From assembly GCA_947629975.1 (NCBI GenBank), contig CANRFU010000002.1, forward strand, positions 1-52,063: DNA of 52,063 nt, given 5' to 3'. The position numbers and the translations under genes are program-made. Source of the DNA: an uncultured Oscillospiraceae bacterium. Its GTDB lineage: Bacteria > Bacillota > Clostridia > Oscillospirales > Oscillospiraceae. Under the pieces are notes generated by a model, which made no database searches, was not told the origin of the DNA, and saw nothing but the letters and a program-made list of their open reading frames with translations. This document shows, piece by piece, positions 2,827 through 51,404 of this stretch. Each line of letters opens with the position of its first letter. Position 1 is the stretch's first letter.

Positions 2827-4008
2827 TCATGGGCGGGGCCGCCCCTCCCGTTCCCAGGCGTCCACGCCCCGCTTCAGCCGGTCCAGGCCGTCCGCCAGCC
2901 GGGACCGGGGGCAGGCGATGTTCATGCGCAAAAACTGTCTGCCGACGGCCCCGTACTGCCCGCCCTCGGACAGATACAGCCCGGTCCTGGCCCGGATAAA
3001 ATCGGCCAAAGGCGCCGCGTCCTCCGCGACGGCCCCGCAGTCCAGCCACAGCAGATAGGTGGCCTCCGAGGGGACCAGGCGGATCCGGGGCAGGCGGGCG
3101 GCCAGGAAGTCCCGGACGGCCCGCTTGTTCTCATACAGATAGGCGCGCAGTTCATCCAGCCAGGGGCCGCCCCGGGTGAAGGCCGCCACGGCGGCGTCCA
3201 CGGCAAAGGCGTTCCCCTCGGCCACCTCGTCGGTGTTGAGGCCCCGCCAGACCTTGTGGCGCAGGAAGGGGTCGGGCGCCGACACGGCGGCGGTTTGGAG
3301 CCCCGCCATGTTGAAGCACTTGGTGGGGGCGAGACAGGTGACGCTGACGGCCCGGCAGTCCTCCGATGCGGAGGCGAAGGGGACGTACTCCTTCCCCGGG
3401 TCGGTGAGGTCGCAGTGGATCTCGTCGGAAAGGACGACGACGTGGTGCTTCCGGCAGAGCTCTCCCACCCTTGCCAGGGTCTCCCGGTCCCATATCCTGC
3501 CCACCGGATTATGGGGGTTGCACAGGATCATGAGGGTGGTCTGGGGGTCGGAGAGATCCCGCTCCAGGCGGGCAAAATCCATGCTGTAAACGCCGTTTTC
3601 GTAGCGCAAAGGGCTCTCTAAGACGTTCCTTCCGTTGTTGACGATGGAGTTGAAAAAGATGTTGTACACCGGGGTCTGGATGAGCACGTTCTCCCCCGGC
3701 GTGGTCAATTTTCGCACGATGCTGGAGATGGCGGGCACCACCCCGGTGCAGAAGATGAGCCAGTCCCGCTCCATCTCAAAGTGGTGGCGGTCCCTCCACC
3801 AGCCGATGTAGGCGTCCGCCCACTCCTCCGGCACCACGGAGTAGCCGAATACCCCGTGGTCCAGCCGCTTCTGCAGGGCCTCCCGGACGCAGGGGGCGGT
3901 CTGGAAGTCCATATCCGCCACCCACATGGGCAGCTCGTTCTCCGCCACGTCCCATTTCAGGGACTGGGTGCCCCGGCGGTCGATGAGGGCATCGAAATCG
4001 TACCGCAT
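2827..4008 (-). CDS. MalY/PatB-type PLP-dependent C-S lyase or aminotransferase
   Basis: A fold-type I PLP enzyme of 393 residues. MalY/PatB relatives cleave cystathionine or cysteine conjugates to a thiol, pyruvate and ammonia, and some act as aminotransferases. Visible motifs are the N-terminal ELPMWVADMDF signature, NPHNPVGR, SDEIHCDL and the PLP lysine in LAPTKCFNMAG (Lys230). It starts four bases after the end of the upstream DUF3737 gene, so the two are co-transcribed. A second family member lies at 14159-15361 and differs clearly in sequence. The exact substrate cannot be told from the sequence. Confidence 0.9.
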   Translation of the reverse strand: MRYDFDALIDRRGTQSLKWDVAENELPMWVADMDFQTAPCVREALQKRLDHGVFGYSVVPEEWADAYIGWWRDRHHFEMERDWLIFCTGVVPAISSIVRKLTTPGENVLIQTPVYNIFFNSIVNNGRNVLESPLRYENGVYSMDFARLERDLSDPQTTLMILCNPHNPVGRIWDRETLARVGELCRKHHVVVLSDEIHCDLTDPGKEYVPFASASEDCRAVSVTCLAPTKCFNMAGLQTAAVSAPDPFLRHKVWRGLNTDEVAEGNAFAVDAAVAAFTRGGPWLDELRAYLYENKRAVRDFLAARLPRIRLVPSEATYLLWLDCGAVAEDAAPLADFIRARTGLYLSEGGQYGAVGRQFLRMNIACPRSRLADGLDRLKRGVDAWEREGRPRP

Positions 4009-14110: not shown

Positions 14111-14143
14111 AAAGGGCGCGTCCGCCTGGCGGACGCGCCCTTT
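14111..14143. terminator. Terminator between the convergent ALDH and MalY/PatB genes
   Basis: AAAGGGCGCGTCCGCC and GGCGGACGCGCCCTTT form a 14-16 bp stem. The A/T flanks on both sides fit use in both directions. The ALDH stop is 16 bp to the left and the second MalY/PatB stop 16 bp to the right. Confidence 0.8.
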
Positions 14144-19234: not shown

Positions 19235-21655
19235 TTATTCCATACTGTTGGCCTTTTTCTGCACCTTGCGCTGCCGGAAGAAGCCGCCGATCACGCCGCC
19301 CACGCCCTTGAAGAAGTGGCCGTTGACGATCTTCAAAATGCTGTGGCACATCTCTTGGCTGCACATGCCGCCCGCCATCTTCCCGATGGCCCGGAAGGGC
19401 ATATTGTAGATGAAGGTGATGTTCAGATCGGGCTTGCCCTTCTCCATGCTCTTGTTCAGCATGTTGGTCATGATCTTGTAGACCTGACGGGCGGGCCAGC
19501 TCTTGGCGTAGTACAGCTGGCAGATGGCGTCGTTCATCTCCAGCTCGCCCTCCAGCCAGTGGCCGTCGGGGATGGGGTGGCCCAGCAGCTCGGTGAACTC
19601 CTCGTCGGACACGGCCAGGATGTCGCCCTTGGCGTAGCTGGGCAGCTTGGCCATATCATAGGGGGCGGGGGCGCCGGTGCCCTTCACCGTGACGGTCCCG
19701 GTGAGCTTGATGTCGGCTACGGAGGCGCCGATCAGGATGTCGTACTCGCCGCCGTCGATCTCAAACTTGTCGGTCTTCACGTTGAAGTACCGGAAGGCCT
19801 TGTCGTCCAGCTTGATGGTGACCTGCTTGCTCTCGCCGGCCTTCAGGAACACCTTGGCGAAGCCCTTCAGCTCCTTGGCGGGGCGGTAGATCGTGGGCTT
19901 CTTGGCGTGGACGTACAGCTGGGCGATCTCGGCGCCGTCCACCTTGCCGGTGTTCTTGATGGTGAAGGTGGCCTCGGTGGGGGACACCTTCAGATCGCTG
20001 TACTCAAAGGTGGTGTAGCTCAGGCCGTAGCCGAAGGGGAACAGCACGGGGACCTTGGCGGTCTCGAAGTAGCGGTAGCCCACATACAGGCCCTCGCGGT
20101 ACTCCACGGTGCGCTCCTTGGCGGGGAAGTAGGGGGCGGAGGGGGTGTCCTCATAGGCCATGGGATAGGTCTCGGACAGCTTGCCGGAGGGGTTCACCTC
20201 GCCCAGGATGACCTTCAGCACGGCGCTGGCGCCGGCCTGGCCGCACAGATAGCCGTGGACCATGGCCTTGCACTTGTCCAGCCAGGGCATCTCCACCGAG
20301 GAGCCGGCGGACATGACGATGATGACGTTGGGATTGACCTCCGCCACCGCGTTCAGCAGGTCGATCTGGCTCTGGGGCAGCTTCATGTGAGCGCGGTCCA
20401 GGCCCTCGGACTCGCTGATCTCGTCCAGGCCCAGGTAGAGCAGGACGTAGTCGCCCTGCTTGGCCAGTTCAACGGCCTTGGCCTGCATCTCGGGGTCGCC
20501 CGCGCCGGAGCGGGGATAGCCGGCCTCGAAGCCCACCACGTTCAGGTCGAAGTTGCCGATCACGTCCATGGTGTGGTCCAGCTTGGTGCAGTTGACCACG
20601 GAGGAGCCGGCGCCCTGATACCGGGCCTGCTTGGCGAACTCGCCGATGACGGCCACTTTGGAACCCTTCGCAAGAGGAAGGATGTTGTTTTCATTCTTGA
20701 GAAGGACGATGGACTGCTCGCTGGCCTTCATGGCCATGGCGTGATGGGCGTCCACGTCGAAGCCCTTGCCGATGTGGGGATCCACGGCGGCACGGGTGGA
20801 GAGGACCACGTCCAGCAGCTCGTCCACGCGCTGGTCCACCAGGGCCTCGCTGATCTTGCCGTCCTTCACGGCCTGGATCAGCTCCTCGTCGGAGTCGCCG
20901 CCGGTGGAGGGCATCTCCAGGTGGGAGCCGGCCGCCACGCCGGCCACATGGTCGTTGGAGGCGCCCCAGTCGGAGACCACGAACCCGTCGAAGCCCCACT
21001 GATCCCGGAGGATCTCCTGGAGCAGGTGATGGTTCTCGTTGGCGTAGACGCCGTTGATCATGTTGTAGGAGGACATGAGGGACTTGGGATGGGACTCCTT
21101 TACCGCGATCTCGAACCCGGTGAGGTAGATCTCACGGAGGGTCCGCTCGTCCACCACGGAGTCGGACGCCTGGCGGCGCAGCTCGGTGTTGTTGGCGGCG
21201 AAGTGCTTGGGGCAGGCGGACACGCCGTTTTCCTGGATGCCGCGGACATACCCGGAGGCCATTTTGCCCGCTAAGTATGGGTCCTCGCAGAAATACTCGA
21301 AGTTGCGGCCGCAGAGGGGGGAGCGCTTGATGTTCATGCCGGGGCCCAGCAGCACGCACACGTCCTGGGCGGCGGCCTCCTCGCCCAGATAGCGGCCGAT
21401 CTCCTCGCCCAGGGCGGGGTCCCAGGAGTTGGCGATGGTGGCGGCGGTGGGGAAGCAGGTGGCGGGGACGGAGCCGTTCAGGCCCAGCTGGTCGCCGGCG
21501 CCCTCCTGCTTGCGGATGCCGTGGGGGCCGTCCGACAGGGTCATGTTGGGCACGCCCTTGGCCTTCACGCTGCGGCTCTGCCAGAAGTCCTTGCCGGACA
21601 GCAGGTAGCACTTCTCCTCCAGGGTCAGCTTGGAGACGATGTCTTGGTGTTTCAC
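19235..21655 (-). CDS. Glycoside hydrolase family 3 (beta-glucosidase-like), cytoplasmic
   Basis: An 806-residue retaining exo-glycosidase in normal GH3 order. The TIM-barrel domain has KHFAANNTE (about 150-158) and the nucleophile in GFVVSDWGA (Asp229). It is followed by the alpha/beta sandwich (SEQSIVLLKNENNILPL, YLGLDEISESEG) and a fibronectin III-like domain (IKNTGKVDGAEIAQLYV). A further C-terminal tail of about 130 residues starts at PYDMAKLPSYAKGD and contains conserved hydrophobic Gly/Met segments. There is no signal peptide, so the substrate is probably an imported oligosaccharide. GGGAGGT stands just before the ATG. Confidence 0.93.
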   Translation of the reverse strand: MKHQDIVSKLTLEEKCYLLSGKDFWQSRSVKAKGVPNMTLSDGPHGIRKQEGAGDQLGLNGSVPATCFPTAATIANSWDPALGEEIGRYLGEEAAAQDVCVLLGPGMNIKRSPLCGRNFEYFCEDPYLAGKMASGYVRGIQENGVSACPKHFAANNTELRRQASDSVVDERTLREIYLTGFEIAVKESHPKSLMSSYNMINGVYANENHHLLQEILRDQWGFDGFVVSDWGASNDHVAGVAAGSHLEMPSTGGDSDEELIQAVKDGKISEALVDQRVDELLDVVLSTRAAVDPHIGKGFDVDAHHAMAMKASEQSIVLLKNENNILPLAKGSKVAVIGEFAKQARYQGAGSSVVNCTKLDHTMDVIGNFDLNVVGFEAGYPRSGAGDPEMQAKAVELAKQGDYVLLYLGLDEISESEGLDRAHMKLPQSQIDLLNAVAEVNPNVIIVMSAGSSVEMPWLDKCKAMVHGYLCGQAGASAVLKVILGEVNPSGKLSETYPMAYEDTPSAPYFPAKERTVEYREGLYVGYRYFETAKVPVLFPFGYGLSYTTFEYSDLKVSPTEATFTIKNTGKVDGAEIAQLYVHAKKPTIYRPAKELKGFAKVFLKAGESKQVTIKLDDKAFRYFNVKTDKFEIDGGEYDILIGASVADIKLTGTVTVKGTGAPAPYDMAKLPSYAKGDILAVSDEEFTELLGHPIPDGHWLEGELEMNDAICQLYYAKSWPARQVYKIMTNMLNKSMEKGKPDLNITFIYNMPFRAIGKMAGGMCSQEMCHSILKIVNGHFFKGVGGVIGGFFRQRKVQKKANSME

Positions 21656-21796: not shown

Positions 21797-24700
21797 TCAG
21801 GCGGCCTTTTTCTTGCCCTTCTTGACGATGACAACGATGCCGATGACCTCGATGATGATGGCGACGGCGGCCACAGCCACGTCAATGCCTACGAAGGTCT
21901 TGGTCATCTTGTCCATACCGCCGGTGGGATCGCCATTGGCGTAGTAGCCGGAGTTGCCCACGGTGTACAGGATGTTCTTGCAGGCCTGACGCATCGCCAG
22001 CAGGACGGTGGGGCTCTGGTTGTCGAACCGGTTGGAGGCGGCGGAGCCGAAGCCCAGCATCAGGTCGTTGCCGTTGTGGACGGCCATGTCGGAGTTCATG
22101 TAGCCATAGGAGCCGTTATAGTCGGTCTCCACCAGGCCCACGAAGCCCCACTCGCCGCGGAGCACGTTGTTCAGCAGGTTGCCGTTGCCGCCGCTCCACT
22201 TGGTGCCGATGAAGTTGAAGGAGCTCATGCAGGCCAGGGCCTTGCCGGTGTAGTTCTTCACAGCGATCTCAAAGGGCTTGAGGTAGATCTCGCGGATGGC
22301 CTGTTCGGAGGCCCAGGTCAGCAGCAGGGAGCAGCGGTTGGTCTCCTGGTCGTTGACGGCGAAGTGCTTGATGTAGGGATACACGCCCTTGCTGCCGGCG
22401 CCGTTGATCTCGGCGGAGGCCAGCTTGCCGGCCAGGACGCCGTCCTCGGAGAAGTACTCGAAGTTACGGCCGGCGAAGGCGCTGCGGTGGTTGTTCATGG
22501 CGGGGCCGTACCAGCCGTAGTTGTAGCACTCGGCGTACTCCTGGCCCATAGCGGCGCCCATTTCTTCCATCAGGGCGGTGTTCCAGGTCTGAGCCATGAG
22601 GACCTCGGTGGGATAGGCGGTGCCGTAGGCGTGGGTCATGAAGTTGGACACGCCGGCGGGGCCGTCGCAGTCAGAGGTCTGGATCTTGCCCACGGAGTCG
22701 ATCTTGGCGGTCTGCCAGCCGCCCAGGTTGATCATCGTGACCATGTCGGTGAAGGAAAGCTGATCCAGCAGCTTATCCCAGTCAGGATCGTCATAGGCCT
22801 TGCCGGTCAGGTTGGCCAGCTTCAGGCCGTTCTGAGCCTCCAGAGTGGGAGCCACATCGTCCGGGTTGTCATAGTCGGCGGAGTTGTAGCCGGCGTTGTT
22901 GTTCTTCTCGATCTCGCTGCGCACGTCGGCACTCATCTCGAGATTGGCGGGAGCAGCGGTGGCCTCGTCATAGTTGGCGAAGTGATCGGCGCGGGACAGC
23001 TGCACGAAGTCGCCCCGGGAGTAATCCTGGAACTGGTTGTGGACAGGGGACTTGTCGCTGGGACGGCCGTCGCTGTAATCGACAGCTGCCTGAGTGAAGG
23101 TCTCCTCATCCAGTACGGTGTGGGAGTCGGAGCGGATGGACACGGTGTAGTCGCCGGCCTCCAGCACGTACTTGCCCTCGCCGGAGTCGTCATAGCAGGC
23201 CAGATCCTCTTTGGGGATCTCGAAGGTGACGGTCTCGGAGGCGCCCGCCGCGATCTCGGCGGTCTTGGCGAAGTCCACCAGGTTGACGCTGGCCTTCTCG
23301 ATGCCGCCGTTGGTGTAGGGCGGGGTGAAGTAGACCTCGACCACGTCCTTGCCGGCCACGGCGCCGGTGTTCTTCACCTCGACGGACATGGTGATGTTGT
23401 CGCCGCTGGCGTCGAAGCTGGTGATGGACTGCTCGAAGGTGGTGTAGCTCAGGCCGTAGCCGAAGGGATAGAGCACCTCGTCCTCATAGTTGATGAGTCC
23501 CTCCTCGGCGGCGGTCTCATAGAACTTGTAGCCGTTGTAGATGCCCTCCACGTAGTTCACGAAAGCCAGGTTGCCGGGATAGGAAGCGTCTGCCTTCACA
23601 ATGGCCTCGCGGAGGTCGTTCACGTTGCTGTAGGAGAAGTTGCCGATGTTGTTGAAGGTGGGGGTGGCGGTCAGATCGCGGACATAGGTGTCAACGGTGT
23701 GGCCGGAGGGGTTGACCTCGCCCTTGATGATCTTGCCCAGGGCGTTGAAGCCGGTGGCGCCGGTGCCGGGGGCCAGGATGACGGCGCCGATCTGGGGATA
23801 GTCCTCCACCCAGCCCAGCTCCATGGCGTTGTTGGCGTTGACGACCAGGATGACCTTGTCGAAGTTCTGGCACACGATGTCGATCATGGCCTCTTCGGTG
23901 TTGGAGGGCTCCAGATAGTGCTCGCCCTCGTCGAAGTCGTTGTAGTCGCCGTTGTTGGTGTAGGAACTGGCCATATAGGCGTAGTTGCTGTTGCCCTGGG
24001 TGACGTTGCCGTTCTCATCGACGCCGACCATCTGGCTGGCGATGTTGAAGCCCTCGGGATCGGTGATGAGCTTGTACATATCGGTGGGAAGGTCGGCGCC
24101 CTCGCCGCCGGAACGGCCCAGAACGATGAGGGCCACGTCGGAGAAGCCGGTGGCCTGGGAGATCACCGCGTCGGTGTAGTAATCAGCGGTGGGCTCGGGC
24201 AGGGTCCAGTCGGCGCCGCCGATGCCCAGACCGCCGCCGCCGCCGCGGCTGGCGCGGTAGTCGGTGTACATCTTGGTCAGGTCTTCGTTGGTGGAGTAGC
24301 CGGCGTTCTTCAGGGAGTCAAGGATGCCGATGTTGCCGGAGGTGTCGGCGGAGCCGGAGCCGGTGCCGCCGTAGATGGGGTTGGTGGAGTCCCAGCCGAA
24401 GACGTTCAGATTGGTCACGTCGGAGGACAGGGGGAGCAGTCCGTTGTTTTCCACCAGGACCATGCCCTCTTCGCCGATCTCCTGGATGACCTCTTTACTG
24501 TGCTGGATGGTGGCATCCTCAAGGTGAGCGGTGTTGTTCATGAACATGGCGATGTTGTTCTTCAGCGGTCCAAAGCATACCAGATTGGCGATGATCAGGA
24601 TGGCCAGGATAGCGGCCACCACGCCGCTGACGCTGATGATGCCCTTCTTGACCACGATGCCGACGATCACCAGAACGATGGCGACCACCAGCACGGCCAG

Positions 24701-37701: not shown

Positions 37702-37716
37702 GGACCGCTTTGGCGC

Positions 37717-37752
37717 AAAAAGGGACCGCTCCGGCCGGAGCGGTCCCTTTTT
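37717..37752. terminator. Bidirectional terminator between purL and the YerC-like gene
   Basis: An 18-bp perfect palindrome (AAAAAGGGACCGCTCCGG/CCGGAGCGGTCCCTTTTT) lies between the two converging stops. It has five A on one side and five T on the other, so it works in both directions. Confidence 0.92.
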
Positions 37753-37757
37753 GCAGA

Positions 37758-44783: not shown

Positions 44784-45617
44784 TCAGTCGAATCCAAGCC
44801 CGAAATAACCATGGGGAGAGGCCTTCCACCGGGAGGGGGGCGCCGCGAACAGCCACCGCGCTCCGGCGAAGGGGACGCCGTCCTCCGCGGAGGCGGGGAT
44901 GCGGACCTCCGCCGTCCGCCCGCACAGGGCGGACAGGGCCGCAGCCCCCTGCTCCTCGTCCCCGGGGGCGCACAGCAGTTCCTTGACCACCGGGCGGCCC
45001 GGCCAGTTCTCCACGGCGGCGCAGCCGGGGCCGTGGGCCAGCTCCAGCCGGTACAGCCCGCTGCCGGGATGGGGGCACATGGCGGTTTGATACGCCAGCT
45101 CCCCTGCGGAGAACCGCACATGAGTATGCCCCGCCAGCAGCTCCTCCCGCAGTTCGGCGTACTCCTCCGGGGAGACGGGGGAGAGGGGCGCCGGGGCCGG
45201 CTCCGCCCGCAAAATTCTGTGGTAAAAGCCCGCCTCGAACCCGCGCCGGGCGAAAAACCGAAACAGGGAGGGCTCCGCCGGCACGGTGAGCAGGCAGTCG
45301 TACCCCCGGCGGCGGGCGTACTCGGCGGCGTAGTCCAGCAGATGGGCGGCATAGCCCCTGCCCCGGACGCCGGGATCGGTGGCCAGGGCGTAGACGTACC
45401 CCGCTTTGACGCTCCAGCCGTCCGGGAAGACCAGCGCTGCCTCCGGCAGGGCCAGCATGGAGCGCACTTCGCCCTCCTCCGTGAGCACCAGGGGGGCCTC
45501 CGCCCCGCACAGTTCATAAAACCGCCGCTGGAAGGCGGCGCCGTCCCCGAAGGTCCTCTCCCAGAGGGCCTCCGCGGAGGGAAACTCGCCGGGACGGGCG
45601 GGGCGCAGCTCGATCAT
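44784..45617 (-). CDS. GNAT-family N-acetyltransferase
   Basis: A 277-residue protein with an N-terminal GNAT domain. The acetyl-CoA loop is LATDPGVRGRGYAAHLLDY (Q/RxxGxG/A type), followed by FRFFARRGFEAGF. A second, degenerate GNAT-like half follows (about 150-277), as in other double-GNAT proteins. The substrate is unknown. The start is the ATG at 45617 with CGGGAGGTC upstream. It overlaps the stop of the DUF2156 gene by four bases, so the pair is an operon. Confidence 0.87.
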   Translation of the reverse strand: MIELRPARPGEFPSAEALWERTFGDGAAFQRRFYELCGAEAPLVLTEEGEVRSMLALPEAALVFPDGWSVKAGYVYALATDPGVRGRGYAAHLLDYAAEYARRRGYDCLLTVPAEPSLFRFFARRGFEAGFYHRILRAEPAPAPLSPVSPEEYAELREELLAGHTHVRFSAGELAYQTAMCPHPGSGLYRLELAHGPGCAAVENWPGRPVVKELLCAPGDEEQGAAALSALCGRTAEVRIPASAEDGVPFAGARWLFAAPPSRWKASPHGYFGLGFD

Positions 45618-46540
45618 GGCCTGACCTCCCGGGCGATGTATTTTTCCAGCAGGATGTCCGGGTAATAGGACAGCTTCGCCTTCCTGAGGCCCTCCAGCCC
45701 CATGTCGTCTTCCCGGTTGAGCCATTTGACCCGGGGATGGGCCTCCCGGACCCGGCGGGCCATCTCCCGGTTGACGGCGGCGTAGGCCCCCTGCACGTCC
45801 CCGAAGGACTTCTCAAAGTTCACGTCAAAGCACTCCGGGGTGATGAGCCCCCCCAGGGAGAAGGCGATGGGCCGCCCCTCCGCCCGGAGGAGCACCCCCT
45901 CCATGCCCAGCTCGTCCATGTGCTCCAGGGCGTCCAGCAGCACGGCGGACTCCTCGGAGATGGTGTCCTCCCCGGCGGCGATCTCCCGCCGCTCCTCCGC
46001 CAGATGGAGCAGGTTCCACTGCCGCTCCAGGTCCATGCACTCCCCCACGTTGGCGGCGGTCACCGGCTCGGAGGTCCAGTCGGGGAACCGGGCGTCGAAA
46101 TGGCTGATGTGGTTGCGCTTGGCGTGAAGCTTCTTTCCCGGCAGGTCGGCCAGGCGGTTCACGTCGTACAGGTAGTCGAAGCTGTCCCGGTGGGCCTCAA
46201 ACGAAAACCGGCCGGGGCAGGCCTCCTCGATGGCGGCCTTTTGCTCCGCTGTGACGCACACCAGCAGCGGGGAGACGCCCTGGACGGCGGCGTCCTCCCC
46301 GATGGCGTCCAGGGCGGGGGCCAGGGGGCCGGAGCCCGCGGGGTAGAGCCAGGCCGGCCCGAGACTGCCCACCACCCGGATCAGCAGCCGGTCCCCGGAC
46401 CGGGCGATCCGCTGGGTGTAAATCTTCCGCCACAGGTAGACGGAGGCAAAACAGTATTCCAGCGACAGGGCCGGTTCGGCGGCCAGCAGGGGGGCGGCCC
46501 ACCGCCGGTCGGCCAGCTCGGGATCTTTGAAGGATAGCAT
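45614..46540 (-). CDS. DUF2156 protein (phosphatidylglycerol lysyltransferase C-terminal-like)
   Basis: A 308-residue soluble protein resembling the C-terminal GNAT-fold domain of MprF-type aminoacyl lipid synthases (DUF2156). Recognisable stretches are FASVYLWRKIY near the start and KLHAKRNHISHF. No membrane segment is present, so if it transfers an amino acid or acyl group the target is unclear. The chosen start is the ATG at 46540, with AAAGGAG 12 bases upstream. It is followed by the coupled GNAT gene. Confidence 0.8.
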   Translation of the reverse strand: MLSFKDPELADRRWAAPLLAAEPALSLEYCFASVYLWRKIYTQRIARSGDRLLIRVVGSLGPAWLYPAGSGPLAPALDAIGEDAAVQGVSPLLVCVTAEQKAAIEEACPGRFSFEAHRDSFDYLYDVNRLADLPGKKLHAKRNHISHFDARFPDWTSEPVTAANVGECMDLERQWNLLHLAEERREIAAGEDTISEESAVLLDALEHMDELGMEGVLLRAEGRPIAFSLGGLITPECFDVNFEKSFGDVQGAYAAVNREMARRVREAHPRVKWLNREDDMGLEGLRKAKLSYYPDILLEKYIAREVRP

Positions 46541-46612
46541 AGGGAAGCGACGCTCCTTTGTGTTCGTTTGGGATATCATATCATACCGATAGGAAAAGCG
46601 CAACCAGGGGCG

Positions 46613-46991
46613 CGAAAAATCCCCGCGTCCTCCGGAACGCGGGGCAAACTTTCAGATGGGGCTTGCATTTTCGCCGGAAAGGGAGTAGAATTAAATCGGA
46701 AACATAGATCGCGGCAGGCCGCGGGGTGCGCCAACACCCCACGGCCCTGTACGAGTGCACACCCACTCAGCACAGCAATCACAGATTGCACCACGGGCTT
46801 ATTATATCCGTTTTTCCCCGTTATTGCAAGCACAACGGTATAATGGCCGTGCTTTGCGTTGGCTTTTGTCAAGGCGGTGTTGAGTTATACGCTCGACACC
46901 GCCTTTTATGTTTCCCGAAAGGGCGCTTGGGGCGGGGCTTCCCGCCCCCGGCGGCCGGACGGGAGAAAAAATGAATCGGAGGTAAAAAAGC
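46613..46991 (+). repeat. Conserved promoter-leader unit, copy 1
   Basis: A non-coding block repeated before each of three surface-protein genes (copies at 48487 and 50049). It contains a GC hairpin (46621-46644), the promoter at 46663-46691, then about 300 nt of predicted leader RNA with five stems. These are 46717-46746, 46775-46789, 46792-46851, 46871-46905 (14 bp, followed by TTAT, terminator-like) and 46929-46948. ATCGGAGGTAAAAAAGC precedes the ATG. Stems are kept between copies while loops vary. No known riboswitch was recognised. Confidence 0.85.
46663..46691 (+). promoter_or_regulatory. Promoter in leader copy 1
   Basis: TTGCAT and TAGAAT with 17-bp spacing. The same boxes and spacing occur in all three leader copies, although the spacer differs at two bases. 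That conservation supports real use. Confidence 0.75.
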
Positions 46992-48476
46992 ATGAAAAAA
47001 CGAGCCGTAGCACTGTTCCTGTCAGTCCTGCTCCTGTTTACGCTCTGTCCCACTGTTTTCGCGGAGGACGTACCCACGTCGGGGAAATGCGGCGACAACC
47101 TTACGTGGCGCTATGACGAGGGCACCAAGACCCTGACCGTCAGCGGTACGGGACCAATGGATGATTATGGTGCAGATTATTCCTATGATTATACACCCTG
47201 GTTTGATCTGCAGCATGAGGAAGCGATCCGTTCCGTCGTGATCGAGCCGGGTGTGACCAGCATTGGGAACGGCGCGTTTCAGTGGTGCGAGGCTTTGACC
47301 AGCGTAACGATCCCCGACACAGTGACCAGCATTGAAGATGGTGCATTTTATTTTTGCACTGCTCTGCCCACCGTGACGATTCCCCAAAGTGTGACCAATA
47401 TTGGCATCGACGCATTTTCAATCTGTAAGAATTTGACATCAATCAACGTTGATGCAGCAAATAAGAATTACACGTCTGTTGACGGAGTACTGTTCTCCAA
47501 GGATATGATGGTGTTGTATAAGCATCCGGGAGGAAAGTCTGGATCCTATCAGGTTCCCTCCGGTGTGACCAGCATTGCAGAAAATGCGTTTGCGGTCTGC
47601 GAATCCCTGACCAGTGTGACGATTCCTGAGAGCGTGACCAGTATTGGGGAAGGCGCTTTTGCGGAATGTTCCTCTCTGACCAGCGTAACGATTCCCGGGG
47701 GTGTGACCAGTATTGGGGCGTATACGCTCGAGCTGTGCGAATCCCTTACCAGCGTGACGATCCCTGCCAGCGTGACCAGCATAGGCGGATTTGCGTTTTA
47801 TGACTGTGACGCGCTGAAGGACGTCTATTACGGCGGCAGCGAGAGCCAGTGGGCGCAGATCGACATCGACAATTCTCAATATGGCAACTACTCCTTGACT
47901 AAGGCCGCTATCCACTACAACAGCGGCGCCGCCGACCCCAAGCCCTCCACCGGCTTCACCGACGTGCCCGCCAACGCCTACTACGCCAACGCGGTGAAGT
48001 GGGCGGTGGAGAACAAGATCACCACCGGCGCCACCGCCACCACCTTCGACCCCAACGGGAACTGCACCCGGGCCCAGATCGTCACCTTCCTGTGGCGGGC
48101 CTATGGCGAGCAGGAGCCCCAGTCCATGGTCAGCCCCTTTTCCGATGTGACCGACCCCAACGCCTATTACTATAAGGCGGTCCTCTGGGCGGTGGAAAAG
48201 AAGATCACCACCGGCGCCACCGCCGCCACCTTCGATCCCAACGGCACCTGCACCCGCGGCCAGGCGGTGACCTTCCAGTGGCGGGCGGCCGACAAACCCC
48301 CCGCGTCCGGCGGCAAGACCTTCGGCGATGTGGCCGATGGGGCGTTCTACGCCGACGCGGTGAAGTGGGCGGTGGAGAACAAGATCACCACCGGCGCTAC
48401 CGCGACCACCTTCGATCCCAACGGCACCTGCACCCGGGGCCAGATCGTGACCTTCCTCTACCGGGATCTGGCGTAA
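46992..48476 (+). CDS. Secreted leucine-rich-repeat (BspA type) protein with SLH anchor
   Basis: A 494-residue surface protein. The signal peptide is about residues 1-24 (ending TVFAED). Residues about 30-315 hold BspA-like LRR_5 repeats of the form SVTIPxxVTSIGxxAFxxCxxLT, repeated about seven times. Three SLH repeats follow (about 320-494: FTDVPANAYYANAVKWAVEN, FSDVTDPNAYYYKAVLW, FGDVADGAFYADAVKWAVEN), each with the ITTG(A/T)TATTFDPNG(N/T)CTR type loop. SLH domains bind pyruvylated wall polymers. BspA repeats often mediate adhesion. The SLH part is nearly identical to that of the next gene. Confidence 0.9.
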   Translation: MKKRAVALFLSVLLLFTLCPTVFAEDVPTSGKCGDNLTWRYDEGTKTLTVSGTGPMDDYGADYSYDYTPWFDLQHEEAIRSVVIEPGVTSIGNGAFQWCEALTSVTIPDTVTSIEDGAFYFCTALPTVTIPQSVTNIGIDAFSICKNLTSINVDAANKNYTSVDGVLFSKDMMVLYKHPGGKSGSYQVPSGVTSIAENAFAVCESLTSVTIPESVTSIGEGAFAECSSLTSVTIPGGVTSIGAYTLELCESLTSVTIPASVTSIGGFAFYDCDALKDVYYGGSESQWAQIDIDNSQYGNYSLTKAAIHYNSGAADPKPSTGFTDVPANAYYANAVKWAVENKITTGATATTFDPNGNCTRAQIVTFLWRAYGEQEPQSMVSPFSDVTDPNAYYYKAVLWAVEKKITTGATAATFDPNGTCTRGQAVTFQWRAADKPPASGGKTFGDVADGAFYADAVKWAVENKITTGATATTFDPNGTCTRGQIVTFLYRDLA

Positions 48477-48494
48477 CAGCTTCAAAGACGGCGC

Positions 48495-48523
48495 AAAGCC
48501 CCGCGTTCTTCGGAACGCGGGGC
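48495..48523 (+). terminator. Hairpin after the first SLH gene
   Basis: GCCCCGCGTTC/GAACGCGGGGC with a TTCG tetraloop lies 19 bp after the stop. The tail is AAACTTT, so termination may be partial. Confidence 0.6.
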
Positions 48524-48540
48524 AAACTTTCAGATGGGGC

Positions 48541-48569
48541 TTGCATTTTCGCCGGAAAAAGAGTAGAAT
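48541..48569 (+). promoter_or_regulatory. Promoter in leader copy 2
   Basis: TTGCAT and TAGAAT with 17-bp spacing, as in copies 1 and 3. Confidence 0.75.
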
Positions 48570-48864
48570 CAAATCGGAAACATAAATTGCGGCAGGCCGC
48601 GGGGTGTTGGCGCACCCCACCGCCCTGTATGAGTACGCACACCACTCAGCACAGCAATCACAGATTGCGCAACGGGCCTATTATATCCGTTTTCCCGTTT
48701 TATTGCAAGTGGTATAACAGGCCGTGCTTTGCGTTGGCTTTTGTCAAGGCGGTGTTGAGTTACACGCTCGACGCCGCCTTCATGTTTCCCGAAAGGGCGC
48801 TCGGGGCGGGGAGAGCCCGCCCCCGGCGGCCGGACGGGAGAAAAAATGGATCGGAGGTAAAAGC

Positions 48865-50046
48865 ATGAAAAAGCGCATCCTGACACTGCTCCTGGCCGCC
48901 GTCATGGTGGTGGCGCTGGTCCCTGCCGTGTTCGCGGAGGACGCTCCCCATGGATTGACTCCTGATGAGGTCGCGGAATTACATCCCCTTTCTGTATCCG
49001 ACGGGCTCCTCCCAAAGCTGTACGGCGACTCGCCCATTACGCTGAAGACCCCAGATCCTTTTGCAGAAAATGATGACGGGTTCACAACGGATACGCATGA
49101 GCGCTATTTAGTTATCAAGGAAGGCACGCCCTTCACCGTGGAAAACCTCGCGCCTGCCAGTGATAACACCTATGTCACGATTTGCCTGTCCTGCTATTCT
49201 TATGAAAGCCCCGGCGTCTACACCTCAGATGGCTACTACGAGAGCTGCTACCTTACCGAAAGCGGTGAGTTTGTCCCCGAATGGGTCGGTCCGGAGGAGG
49301 AGCTCTACGGCGGTTGGGTGGAACTGCGGTCGGGCGAGTCTGTGGAGTTCTCCCTGCCCTATGATGAGCATGGGCAGGATACTGTCTATTTGCTCACGAT
49401 ATATCATGAGTACCCTGATTACGAATATGAGTACTGGACTTATTTTACCATGCTGGTGGACGACGACCTGTACGCCCAACTGACCGAGAGTACAGATCCT
49501 GCCCCCGGCCCTGATGTGCCCGCCTTCACCGACGTGTCCGCCAACGCCTACTACGCCGACGCGGTGAAGTGGGCGGTGGAGACCGAAGTCACCAACGGCT
49601 ATCCGGACGGCAGATTCGACCCCAACGGGAACTGCACCCGGGCCCAGATCGTCACCTTCCTGTGGCGGGCCTATGGCGAGCAGGAGCCCCAGTCCATGGT
49701 CAGCCCCTTCTCCGATGTGACCGACCCCGGCGCCTATTACTATAAGGCGGTCCTCTGGGCATCGGAGAACGACATCACCTCCGGCACGGACGACACCCAC
49801 TTCTCCCCCAATGCGACCTGCACCCGGGGCCAGGCGGTGACCTTCCAGTGGCGGGCGGCCGACAAACCCTCCGCGTCCGGCGGCAAGACCTTCGGCGACG
49901 TGGCCGATGGGGCGTTCTACGCCGACGCGGTGAAGTGGGCGGTGGAGAACGAGATCACCACCGGCACCACCGCGACCACCTTCGATCCCAACGGCACCTG
50001 CACCCGCGGCCAGATCGTGACCTTCCTCTACCGGGATCTGGCGTAA
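48865..50046 (+). CDS. Secreted protein of unknown domain with SLH anchor
   Basis: A 393-residue surface protein. The signal peptide (MKKRILTLLLAAVMVVALVP, cut after VFAED region) is similar to that of the first cassette. The middle part (about 30-215) is acidic and rich in Tyr, Ser and Asp, with beta-strand-like stretches such as NTYVTICLSCYSYESPG and VELRSGESVEFSLPYDEHG; it is not recognised. Three SLH repeats (about 218-393) are nearly the same as in the previous gene at DNA level, except the second SLH loop (SENDITSGTDDTHFSPNAT). The start ATG has CGGAGGTAAAAGC upstream. Confidence 0.88.
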   Translation: MKKRILTLLLAAVMVVALVPAVFAEDAPHGLTPDEVAELHPLSVSDGLLPKLYGDSPITLKTPDPFAENDDGFTTDTHERYLVIKEGTPFTVENLAPASDNTYVTICLSCYSYESPGVYTSDGYYESCYLTESGEFVPEWVGPEEELYGGWVELRSGESVEFSLPYDEHGQDTVYLLTIYHEYPDYEYEYWTYFTMLVDDDLYAQLTESTDPAPGPDVPAFTDVSANAYYADAVKWAVETEVTNGYPDGRFDPNGNCTRAQIVTFLWRAYGEQEPQSMVSPFSDVTDPGAYYYKAVLWASENDITSGTDDTHFSPNATCTRGQAVTFQWRAADKPSASGGKTFGDVADGAFYADAVKWAVENEITTGTTATTFDPNGTCTRGQIVTFLYRDLA

Positions 50047-50064
50047 CAGCTTCAAAGACGGCGC

Positions 50065-50093
50065 AAAGCCCCGCGTTCCGAAGAACGCGGGGC
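50065..50093 (+). terminator. Hairpin after the second SLH gene
   Basis: GCCCCGCGTTC/GAACGCGGGGC with a CGAA loop lies 21 bp after the stop, followed by AAACTTT. It corresponds to the hairpin after the first SLH gene. Confidence 0.6.
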
Positions 50094-50110
50094 AAACTTT
50101 CAGATGGGGC

Positions 50111-50139
50111 TTGCATTTTCGCCGGAAAAAGAGTAGAAT
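50111..50139 (+). promoter_or_regulatory. Promoter in leader copy 3
   Basis: TTGCAT and TAGAAT with 17-bp spacing; sequence identical to copy 2 in this region. Confidence 0.75.
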
Positions 50140-50439
50140 CAAATCGGAAACATAAATTGCGGCAGGCCGCGGGGTGTTACCAGCACCCCACGGCCCTGTA
50201 CGAGTGAACGCACCACTCAGCACAGCAATCTATGATTGCACCACGGGCTTATTATATCCGTTTTTCCCCGTTATTGCAAGCATAACGGATTTGAGCCGTG
50301 CTTCGCATTGACTTTTGTCAGGCGGTGTTGAGTTTTACGCTCGACACCGCCTTTTATGTTTCCCGAAAGGGCGCTCGGGGCGGGATAAACCCGCCCCCGG
50401 CGGCCGGACGGGAGAAAAATGAATTGGAGGTAAAAAAGC

Positions 50440-51279
50440 ATGAAAAAACGCATCCTGTCAATGTTTTTGGCTACCGCGTTGATCCTGGCCCTGTGCGCCG
50501 GATGTGGTGACGGACAGTCTGCTGTCACCGAGGCCCCCACCGCGCCCTCGCCTACAGAGGCACCGCCCACGGAAGTGCTGGCTACGGAGGCTCCCACCGA
50601 AGCGCCGCCTACGGAGGAGCCTATCAGCGAGGAGATTACTGTTGGCACCGAGGAGGAACTGCTGGCCGCCCTGGAGGGCAATGCGTCGGTCATTCATCTC
50701 AGCGGGGACATTGAATTGAGCGAGAGCGATAATATCTTGATAATCGACCGTTCTGTCGCTCTTGACCTGAACGGGCATACGTTTCCACCCACGCTGGGTA
50801 ATGGTACCCGAGTTAGCACGACCGTGTCTGTAGAGGCCCTTGGCTGTAATGTGACCATTTGCAACGGCGCTGCCGTTGAGTACCCTGATCGCTTCGATAT
50901 TATTTCTAATGGGATATTGACCGTCGACAATCTAACTCTTGATCTTCTACAAGTATATGGAGGCGAGGCAACTGTTTTAAACAGTTCTATAGATGAGCTT
51001 ATGGTGAACTGCGGCTGCGCAATAGAGCATATAGAGAATACCATTGTAACAAGATACATTTTAATGGAAAGCATTGCCCTCATAGAGAACGCCGGTGACG
51101 AAGAACTCATAAAATACTATAAAGAGTCTGGTCTATACACCGATCCATATATCGTGATGCCAGACGGAACGCGTTTTACCCTCAATGAGGAAAATGCCGA
51201 TCAAATATCTGACTTCGTACCTAATGATACGTTTTATCAAAAGAATGCTCCAATTGACGGGTTGTCAGAACGGCAGTAA
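50440..51279 (+). CDS. Lipoprotein with repetitive beta-structured domain, SLH repeats missing
   Basis: A 279-residue protein behind the third leader copy. The signal peptide starts like its neighbours (MKKRILSMFLATALILALCAGC) but carries a lipobox (LCAGC), so it is lipid-anchored. A Thr/Pro/Glu-rich linker (about 28-65) follows. The next region (about 70-240) has repeated short strands (VIHLSGDIELSESDNI, VALDLNGHTF, NVTICNGAAVEY, ILTVDNLTLDLLQVYGG), suggesting a parallel beta-helix. From about 50850 the DNA is much more AT-rich than the cassette neighbours, which suggests a foreign module. No SLH repeat is present; a fragment of one lies downstream. Confidence 0.85.
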   Translation: MKKRILSMFLATALILALCAGCGDGQSAVTEAPTAPSPTEAPPTEVLATEAPTEAPPTEEPISEEITVGTEEELLAALEGNASVIHLSGDIELSESDNILIIDRSVALDLNGHTFPPTLGNGTRVSTTVSVEALGCNVTICNGAAVEYPDRFDIISNGILTVDNLTLDLLQVYGGEATVLNSSIDELMVNCGCAIEHIENTIVTRYILMESIALIENAGDEELIKYYKESGLYTDPYIVMPDGTRFTLNEENADQISDFVPNDTFYQKNAPIDGLSERQ

Positions 51280-51285
51280 GCGGAA

Positions 51286-51357
51286 TTGCATACGGATACG
51301 CGTGAACACTATCACCCGCGGCCAGATCGTGACCTTCCTCTACCGGGATCTGGCGTA
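51286..51357 (+). pseudogene. Remnant of an SLH surface-protein gene
   Basis: From 51313 the sequence is identical to the end of the second SLH gene, encoding TRGQIVTFLYRDLA and stop, and the identity continues past the stop to about 51383. Just upstream, CGGATACGCGTGAACACTAT (51292 region) resembles CGGATACGCATGAGCGCTAT from the variable part of the second gene, but in another frame. The piece therefore looks like what remains after an internal deletion of a fourth cassette, or of the tail of the third gene. Confidence 0.75.
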
Positions 51358-51376
51358 ACAGCTTCAAAGACGGCGC

Positions 51377-51404
51377 AAAGCCCTCCCCAACCGGGGAGGG
51401 CTTT
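51377..51404. terminator. Terminator between the SLH cassettes and rny
   Basis: AAAGCCCTCCCC and GGGGAGGGCTTT form a perfect 12-bp stem with an AACC loop. It lies 13 bp after the rny stop on the minus strand and also faces the cassettes. Confidence 0.85.

Follow-up and report, generated by a model that had tools for sequence, protein, structure and literature searches.

The DNA analysed here, called the window, is the whole of contig CANRFU010000002.1 (52,063 nucleotides), one of the 98 contigs of a 93%-complete assembly (GCA_947629975.1) from an uncultured Oscillospiraceae bacterium. It carries three successive units in which a non-coding leader precedes a gene whose product begins with a predicted signal peptide or lipoprotein N-terminus. 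A sequence-only reading of the window had described these units as surface-protein cassettes with a constant leader, a variable middle and a constant SLH tail, and had proposed that exposed domains are swapped there by homologous recombination. Direct comparison bears out the description of the leaders, which are 87-90% identical across ~390 bases and have only their first codons (MKKR...) as common coding sequence; position 46613, where the region of that first description starts, is at the left edge of leader 1, just 5' of a G+C-rich hairpin. The middles are indeed unrelated, with LRR_5 repeats in unit 1, an orphan region in unit 2 and no Pfam family in unit 3. Every leader holds a discrete element of 214-218 bases with its own promoter-like site and terminator-like hairpin, and this element is our main subject; all coordinates are collected in Table 1.

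Each leader contains a conserved RNA element

The element was revealed as a discrete unit by an alignment of 22 copies. Those in the window open with GGAAACATAAA or a close variant, close at ...ATGTTTCC, and lie ~75 bases upstream of a start codon with a ribosome-binding site, a distance that in other copies is mostly 60-175 bases (start codons picked by rule). With a leader as blastn query, 15 of the 42 genomes of the genus matched, the window's own counted. Searches with a covariance model, R1 (E value cut-off 0.001, own genome again counted), found matches in 29/42 genomes of the genus. Of the bacterial family, 104 of the 300 genomes sampled matched, representing 52 of its 106 sampled genera; the counts for the order and the class, whose samples overlap with the window's own family or order, were 50/295 and 10/291. 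Chance may account for the weakest of these matches (E near 1e-4). Among 40 named contigs fetched with the unit 2 SLH protein, four hold the element, of which two belong to the same assembly, and these contigs are labelled Oscillospiraceae and Clostridia. The set used below comprises 84 copies, which are all the matches at E 1e-15 in 81 sources: the window and 80 fetched loci, picked from longer match lists in favour of high scores and different genomes.

The copies share five helices, P1 to P4 and the terminator-like hairpin, with 94.3% of alignment cells paired and changes on both sides in 40 of the 45 base pairs. A plain MAFFT alignment was too noisy for P2 and a covariance-model alignment was used instead; this alignment is fitted to the structure, so the pair counts lean towards it. 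The covariation score was 0.504, against 0.058-0.070 with slid partners, and was reached by none of 500 shuffles; since the copies are related, shuffle counts are not to be read as probabilities. The terminator-like hairpin is paired in 96.7% of cells, and U-rich tails are present. To the eye, covariation is clearest in P1, which joins both ends of the element: GGAAACATAAA faces TTTATGTTTCC, and across groups GAAAAACAAAAA faces TTTTTGTTTTTC and CGAGGCAAAT faces ATTTGCCTCG. All 10 P1 pairs show changes on both sides, and through this helix the first bases of the RNA pair with the U-tract of the terminator (for example 50146-50155 with 50354-50363). In other families, P1 retains at least 10 of 11 pairs in 29 of 38 loci (shuffles 212/1900); a level of at least 9 of 11, found in 34/38, is little above chance (944/1900), because the scan picks the best of many places. 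We conclude that the leader almost certainly contains a real, conserved RNA element.

This RNA family is absent from Rfam 15, in which no family reached its gathering score over the element in the window region or in the loci of five relatives. The sole sub-threshold match at the window elements was RF01074, on the minus strand at 48736-48790 (24 bits against a required 40, E 0.7), and at the elements of the five relatives' loci there was none. Leader 3 had no match in plasmid and phage collections by sensitive blastn; a copy of another type (L172), compared with phages by blastn, gave a single partial match (111 bases at 76%, E 8e-8) in an unannotated phage record. A strict DNA pattern run over the fetched loci found nothing, the pattern fitting the real spacing badly. 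No description of the element was found by key-word reading of the literature, including PMC4737173, most subscription journals lying outside the collection searched, and two non-coding RNA surveys (PMC11109978, PMC8632094) contained no relevant match.

Two genomes carry long variants of the element (L189:85-333 and L190:501-748, about 249 bases), each 26 bases upstream of a gene whose product does not look exported at its N-terminus; no Pfam family matches the product in L189.

Promoter-like sites lie on both strands

A promoter-like site on the sense strand ends 6-12 bases 5' of the element. It scores at least 8/12 in 81 of the 84 copies, as against 452 of 4200 shuffles, with a 17-base spacer in 76/84 and TTG in 77/84. 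All 84 copies reach 7/12, but so do 1526 of the 4200 shuffles, hence the stricter level is quoted. A second site, ~100 bases into the element, points back on the antisense strand: the best antisense match falls at this same place in 83/84 copies and is never below 8/12. Its -35 block starts with TTG in 79/83 and its -10 block is exactly TATAAT in 77/83, separated by 17 bases in 79/83 (16 in two, 18 in two), while the letters between the blocks are variable. Exact TTG and exact TATAAT occur together in 75/84 copies and in 0/4200 shuffles. Also on the antisense strand, a U-rich end follows P2 in 79/83 copies, a count that has no control.

The copies from which R1 was built all hold the antisense site, and on account of this ascertainment we built a second, promoter-blind model, R2, whose result is free of it. 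R2 spans roughly the first 100 bases only, stopping short of the antisense -10 block, and was made from 30 copies of the window's family; in a search of the order it matched 49 of 394 genomes. In 40 loci from outside the window's family, fetched from a longer list, an antisense site scoring at least 8/12 lay at the same place in 40/40 (shuffles 269/2000), and 32/40 had exact TTG...TATAAT (shuffles 2/2000). The sites are thus opposed and their predicted transcripts overlap, which at the level of sequence is the arrangement of an antisense attenuator.

A predicted antiterminator would exclude the terminator

The terminator-like hairpin lies upstream of the ribosome-binding site, as a leader terminator would. 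The 3' side of P3 and its linker (ACTCARCACA in the window) are complementary to the terminator 5' arm TGTGTTGAGT, and the two strands covary in other groups (ACCTACACA with TGTGTAGGT, CTCCCACACA with TGTGTGGGG). When each copy's own arm was compared with swapped arms (79/84 copies, five being dropped for want of an anchor), own-arm pairing was found at 388 of 474 variable positions, against a mean of 332 and a maximum of 364 in 5000 re-pairings. RNA cut just past the terminator 5' arm folds the antiterminator helix in 71/84 copies, the three of the window included, compared with 62/252 for swapped arms, and full-length folds hold the terminator helix in 68/84. The covarying pairing and the truncated folds point to an antiterminator that is mutually exclusive with the terminator, more weakly so in some distant groups. 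As truncated RNAs fold the antiterminator and full-length RNAs the terminator, a kinetic choice between read-through and termination would be built into the leader. The predicted antisense RNA has the same letters as the terminator 5' arm, except that some copies show a G-U difference.

The genes behind the element mostly encode exported-looking proteins

An exported-looking N-terminus was predicted, by a simple hydrophobicity rule and with rule-picked start codons, for the gene downstream of 67 of 81 copies (three of the 84 had no usable frame), compared with 26 of the 150 other frames that reach 200 residues in the same loci. Pfam matches among these 81 proteins include SLH (30), LRR_5 (16), the copper amine oxidase N-terminal domain (7), transglutaminase-like (5) and LysM (4); there are exceptions, among them one PemK-like match. 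At the R2 loci from other families, 22 of 31 downstream frames look exported. Control of a replication initiator, as in plasmid copy number, does not fit these genes, which mostly encode exported-looking proteins, nor does it fit leader 3, which lacks a plasmid match. That copies stand before unrelated, mostly exported genes in many other genomes with a covarying structure and promoter-like sites on both strands argues for selection on an RNA function.

Hairpin loops vary while stems are kept

Among 87 close pairs of copies, loop identity is 0.58 for P2, 0.48 for P3 and 0.55 for P4, against 0.88-1.00 for the stems; the terminator loop stands at 0.58 and the middle stretch at 0.73. The window copies likewise have nearly identical stems and different loops, those of P2 reading CGCCAA, TTGGCG and TTACCAG. 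A U-turn motif (YUNR) occurs on either strand of the P2 loop in 55/84 copies (shuffled mean 26.9, maximum 38), the P4 loop is slightly enriched for YTGG (11/84, shuffled maximum 8), and TTGGCG or its complement occurs in the P2 loop in 15/84. None of 37 within-genome pairs of fetched copies has all three loops alike and three pairs share one or two; one of these three (L092) has the same P2 and P3 loops in both copies and a one-base difference in P4.

In one genome (G014), a tandem pair of elements (L092:2483-2713 and 3642-3872) lies about 1.2 kb apart, each before a paralogous exported-looking protein.

A model for antisense attenuation

On this evidence, we think it probable that each leader is an antisense-RNA transcription attenuator for the gene behind it. 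The sense RNA would start at the first base of the element and, if undisturbed, its antiterminator strand would pair with the emerging terminator 5' arm, so that transcription runs into the gene. The antisense RNA, predicted to be ~95 bases long and to form three hairpins, would make loop-to-loop kissing contacts with the sense RNA before covering the antiterminator strand, upon which the terminator would form and the gene would be off. With loops that differ between copies on nearly constant stems, an antisense RNA may have its own leader as its main target. We suggest tentatively, and with more doubt than confidence, that loops are specificity barcodes among copies. Equally speculative is the wider view that dispersed, self-contained attenuators with their own loop barcodes set the on and off states of surface and exported proteins across the family and beyond; duplicates would at first silence each other in trans, like incompatible plasmids, and become independent only once their loops diverge, loop hypervariability being the record of that selection.

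Several points weigh against attenuation by antisense RNA. The RNAs, promoters and terminator are all predicted from sequence letters. One copy (L092:2483) has no antisense site at its place by scan, the count of 83/84 is partly ascertainment because all R1 training copies hold the site, and another copy (L086) has lost its terminator half. A P1 helix that closes the whole RNA and pairs with the U-tract is unneeded in a plain attenuator. Several distant groups pair just 3-5 bases in a row from the antiterminator anchor, and an initial comparison of antiterminator pairing with shuffled regions gave scores close to chance in many copies (z near 0 or positive), which we ascribe to the strong chance duplexes given by G+C-rich regions; the own-versus-swapped and folding tests are the better controls. 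As full-length folds favour the terminator, the ON state would rest on kinetics. In another family, one element (L341) is followed by a TnpB-like gene (HTH_OrfB_IS605, PF12323, on 40 residues; minus strand of the locus, about 350 bases in from the element end), and at a further locus (L343) the downstream gene looks TnpB-like by eye only; the element may travel with, or control, some insertion sequences.

Other points of this kind concern the loops. The loop of the terminator varies as much as those of P2 to P4, and relaxed constraint may thus explain part of the variation. The P3 loop has YUNR at the shuffled level (28/84, mean 28.0) and the P4 loop is not enriched for it (46/84, mean 37.6, maximum 52). 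In engineered attenuators specificity was not set by the loop alone, differences being needed in the upper stem as well (PMC3753616); the window copies differ in loops on nearly identical stems, which speaks against a simple loop barcode.

Cassette turnover and other explanations of the leader

The alternative that survives best takes leader and tail as recombination flanks of a surface-antigen cassette system that swaps its middles. The array is flanked, by Pfam, by a phosphatidylglycerol-lysyltransferase-like gene and an HD-domain gene, the latter presumably akin to ribonuclease Y. We compared this locus in relatives, as the sequence-only reading had proposed, fetching 30 genus loci for 36 matching genomes. 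The window's genome (G000) has three cassettes; another (G031) has a single cassette between the same flanks, with a signal peptide like that of unit 2, a BspA middle like that of unit 1 and a quite different SLH tail. Blastn with leader 3 found no leader in the other 28 fetched loci, where the flanking genes are separated by 45-716 bases in 22 and 1035 in one, the second gene being out of view in five; one of these (G026) is empty despite having the most similar flanking protein (91%). The arrangement of zero, one or three cassettes at one site is what a system of antigen cassettes would show, and supports gain and loss of cassettes between close relatives.

The tails tell a similar story. 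Those of units 1 and 2 are 90.5% identical across 525 ungapped bases, in line with the constant tail first described, and tail plus next leader form one block with 89% identity over 948 bases. The tails are mosaic: identical runs of up to 95 bases (48045-48139) stand amid 60-base blocks at 68-78%, and the differences fall on every codon position (19, 14 and 17). Alternating blocks with differences at all codon positions are the pattern that gene conversion would leave, and recombination of the SLH tails is likely. The 71-base remnant of the tail noted earlier behind the third unit was also found, and sits after the stop codon of that unit's own gene. As for the orphan middle of unit 2 (residues 25-208), its sole match was itself among 156 scored candidates from 5.8 billion proteins, at the sensitivity of the search, and the unit 2 protein had no match in viral contigs; besides itself, the unit 3 protein matched two others, at 84% and 47% identity.

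Varying cassette number and mosaic tails thus uphold part of the homologous-recombination proposal. The other part, that the leader is constant as a recombination flank, is not supported: copies precede unrelated, mostly exported genes at many sites in other genomes, and both their covarying RNA structure and the promoter-like sites of the two strands are conserved. The proposal also pointed to the leader as a query for more cassettes across the genome, and this search of the 98 contigs (93% complete) found no leader copies, silent or not, beyond the three. A fixed order and content of the three genes in all relatives, with no leader copies elsewhere, had been named as telling against it; the second was found within the genome, whereas gene order and content are not fixed in relatives. 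We therefore regard recombination flanks as a somewhat unlikely account of the leader; a recombining cassette system and an attenuator can coexist.

SLH repeats give 38 matches on 15 contigs of the window's genome, the window's own included, whereas its leaders are only the three of the array; it seems that most of its SLH genes are controlled in some other way.

A ligand-sensing riboswitch or a protein-bound attenuator, in which the TATAAT-like block would be an RNA motif, is improbable. The element does look like a riboswitch in its covarying helices, its closing P1 and its terminator-like hairpin before the start codon, and P1 is without a clear role in the antisense model. Yet the near-fixed 17-base spacing with variable letters between the blocks is the signature of a promoter, the hairpin loops are among the most variable parts, and no Rfam family exceeds its threshold at the element.

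It is very unlikely that the element is a mobile element like a miniature inverted-repeat transposable element, with GGAAACATAAA/TTTATGTTTCC as terminal inverted repeats, landing before genes by chance. The inverted ends, the repeated occurrence within a genome, the matches in some distant families and the one or two copies before TnpB-like genes would suit this; the sense site is conserved outside those ends, the internal hairpins covary, and the downstream proteins mostly look exported. Scarcely credible is that the antisense-strand promoter serves a divergent upstream gene. Such a gene does lie upstream of leader 1 (45614-46603, minus strand), but leaders 2 and 3 keep the site behind a plus-strand gene, the site is in place in nearly all copies, and a U-rich end follows P2 on that strand.

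Table 1. Features of the tandem array and of its three RNA elements, in window coordinates.
Feature	Position	Strand	Basis or remark
RNA element copy 1	46698..46915	+	covariance model match, 201.5 bits
Copy 1, P1 5' strand	46698-46707	+	
Copy 1, P2	46715-46749	+	
Copy 1, P3	46753-46768	+	
Copy 1, antiterminator strand	about 46765-46773	+	
Copy 1, P4	46775-46789	+	
Copy 1, terminator-like hairpin	46874-46902	+	
Copy 1, P1 3' strand	46906-46915	+	
RNA element copy 2	48576..48789	+	covariance model match, 192.7 bits
Copy 2, P2	48593-48627	+	loop TTGGCG
Copy 2, P3	48631-48647	+	
Copy 2, antiterminator strand	about 48644-48652	+	
Copy 2, P4	48654-48668	+	
Copy 2, terminator-like hairpin	48749-48777	+	
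Copy 2, P1 3' strand	48780-48789	+	
RNA element copy 3	50146..50363	+	covariance model match, 214.2 bits
Copy 3, P1 5' strand	50146-50155	+	
Copy 3, P2	50163-50198	+	
Copy 3, P3	50202-50218	+	
Copy 3, antiterminator strand	about 50215-50223	+	
Copy 3, P4	50225-50239	+	
Copy 3, terminator-like hairpin	50322-50350	+	
Copy 3, P1 3' strand	50354-50363	+	
Sense promoter-like site, leader 1	46663..46691	+	TTGCAT-17-TAGAAT
Sense promoter-like site, leader 2	48541..48569	+	TTGCAT-17-TAGAAT
Sense promoter-like site, leader 3	50111..50139	+	TTGCAT-17-TAGAAT
Antisense promoter-like site, leader 1	46801..46829	-	TTGCAA-17-TATAAT
Antisense promoter-like site, leader 2	48680..48708	-	TTGCAA-17-TATAAT
Antisense promoter-like site, leader 3	50251..50279	-	TTGCAA-17-TATAAT
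Predicted antisense RNA, leader 3	about 50244 down to about 50150	-	predicted ends
Leader 1	46617-46991	+	direct sequence comparison
Leader 2	48495-48864	+	direct sequence comparison
Leader 3	50065-50439	+	direct sequence comparison
Unit 1 gene	46992..48476	+	494 residues; predicted signal peptide, BspA-type LRR_5 repeats, 3 SLH domains (Pfam)
Unit 2 gene	48865..50046	+	393 residues; predicted signal peptide, orphan middle, 3 SLH domains (Pfam)
Unit 3 gene	50440..51279	+	279 residues; predicted lipoprotein by N-terminus; no Pfam family
SLH tail of unit 1	47950-48476	+	sequence comparison
SLH tail of unit 2	49520-50046	+	sequence comparison
SLH tail-end remnant 3' of unit 3	51313..51383	+	71 bases, 100% identical to 50001-50071

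Self-comparison of the window additionally showed two DNA palindromes, at 37715-37754 (40 bases, 100% self-complementary) and 14111-14143 (33 bases, 97%), and a 36-base direct repeat, 97% identical, with copies 3.4 kb apart at 20003-20038 and 23432-23467.

Comparison with known antisense attenuators

To our knowledge, the documented cases of antisense attenuation are a few plasmid rep genes and isolated examples such as icsA. In the plasmids pT181 and pIP501, opposed and overlapping RNAs are made and a terminator lies before the rep gene. Antisense-RNA transcription attenuation in pT181 involves a kissing hairpin, according to PMC3753616, and a U-turn loop is important in pIP501, as the title of Heidrich and Brantl (2003), cited in PMC7430163, states. 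The element described here has the same apparent logic with hairpin loops, as a prediction; it differs in standing mostly before exported-protein genes in assemblies of bacterial genomes, where the plasmids have rep, in occurring as several dispersed copies per genome, and in having a P1 that joins both of its ends. The icsA/RnaG system of Shigella, with convergent promoters 120 bases apart, a kissing complex and an antisense-induced intrinsic terminator in the icsA leader (PMC5394118), is alike in that a surface-protein gene would be attenuated by antisense RNA. That system consists of one virulence-plasmid gene and a 450-base antisense RNA, whereas here compact 220-base modules were found in 52 of the 106 sampled genera of one family.

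If the model is true, the way in which these bacteria control many of their envelope proteins can be tested directly, and there would be a concrete account of how duplicated surface genes could gain independent control. There would also be a natural stock of many attenuators that differ in their loops; in synthetic biology independent ones have had to be built by hand, by changing the kissing hairpin and keeping the pT181 scaffold (PMC3753616). The loop common to the kissing hairpins of those constructs, 5'-TTGGCG-3' in the same source, is also the P2 loop of leader 2; they are laboratory products, whereas the copies described here form a natural series in which no within-genome pair is alike in all three loops. 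The SLH and BspA surface proteins would be the regulated cargo and are not the novel part. What is new is that a single RNA family, to all appearance following this logic, is matched in roughly a third of the genomes sampled from one bacterial family, where it mostly precedes genes for surface or exported proteins.

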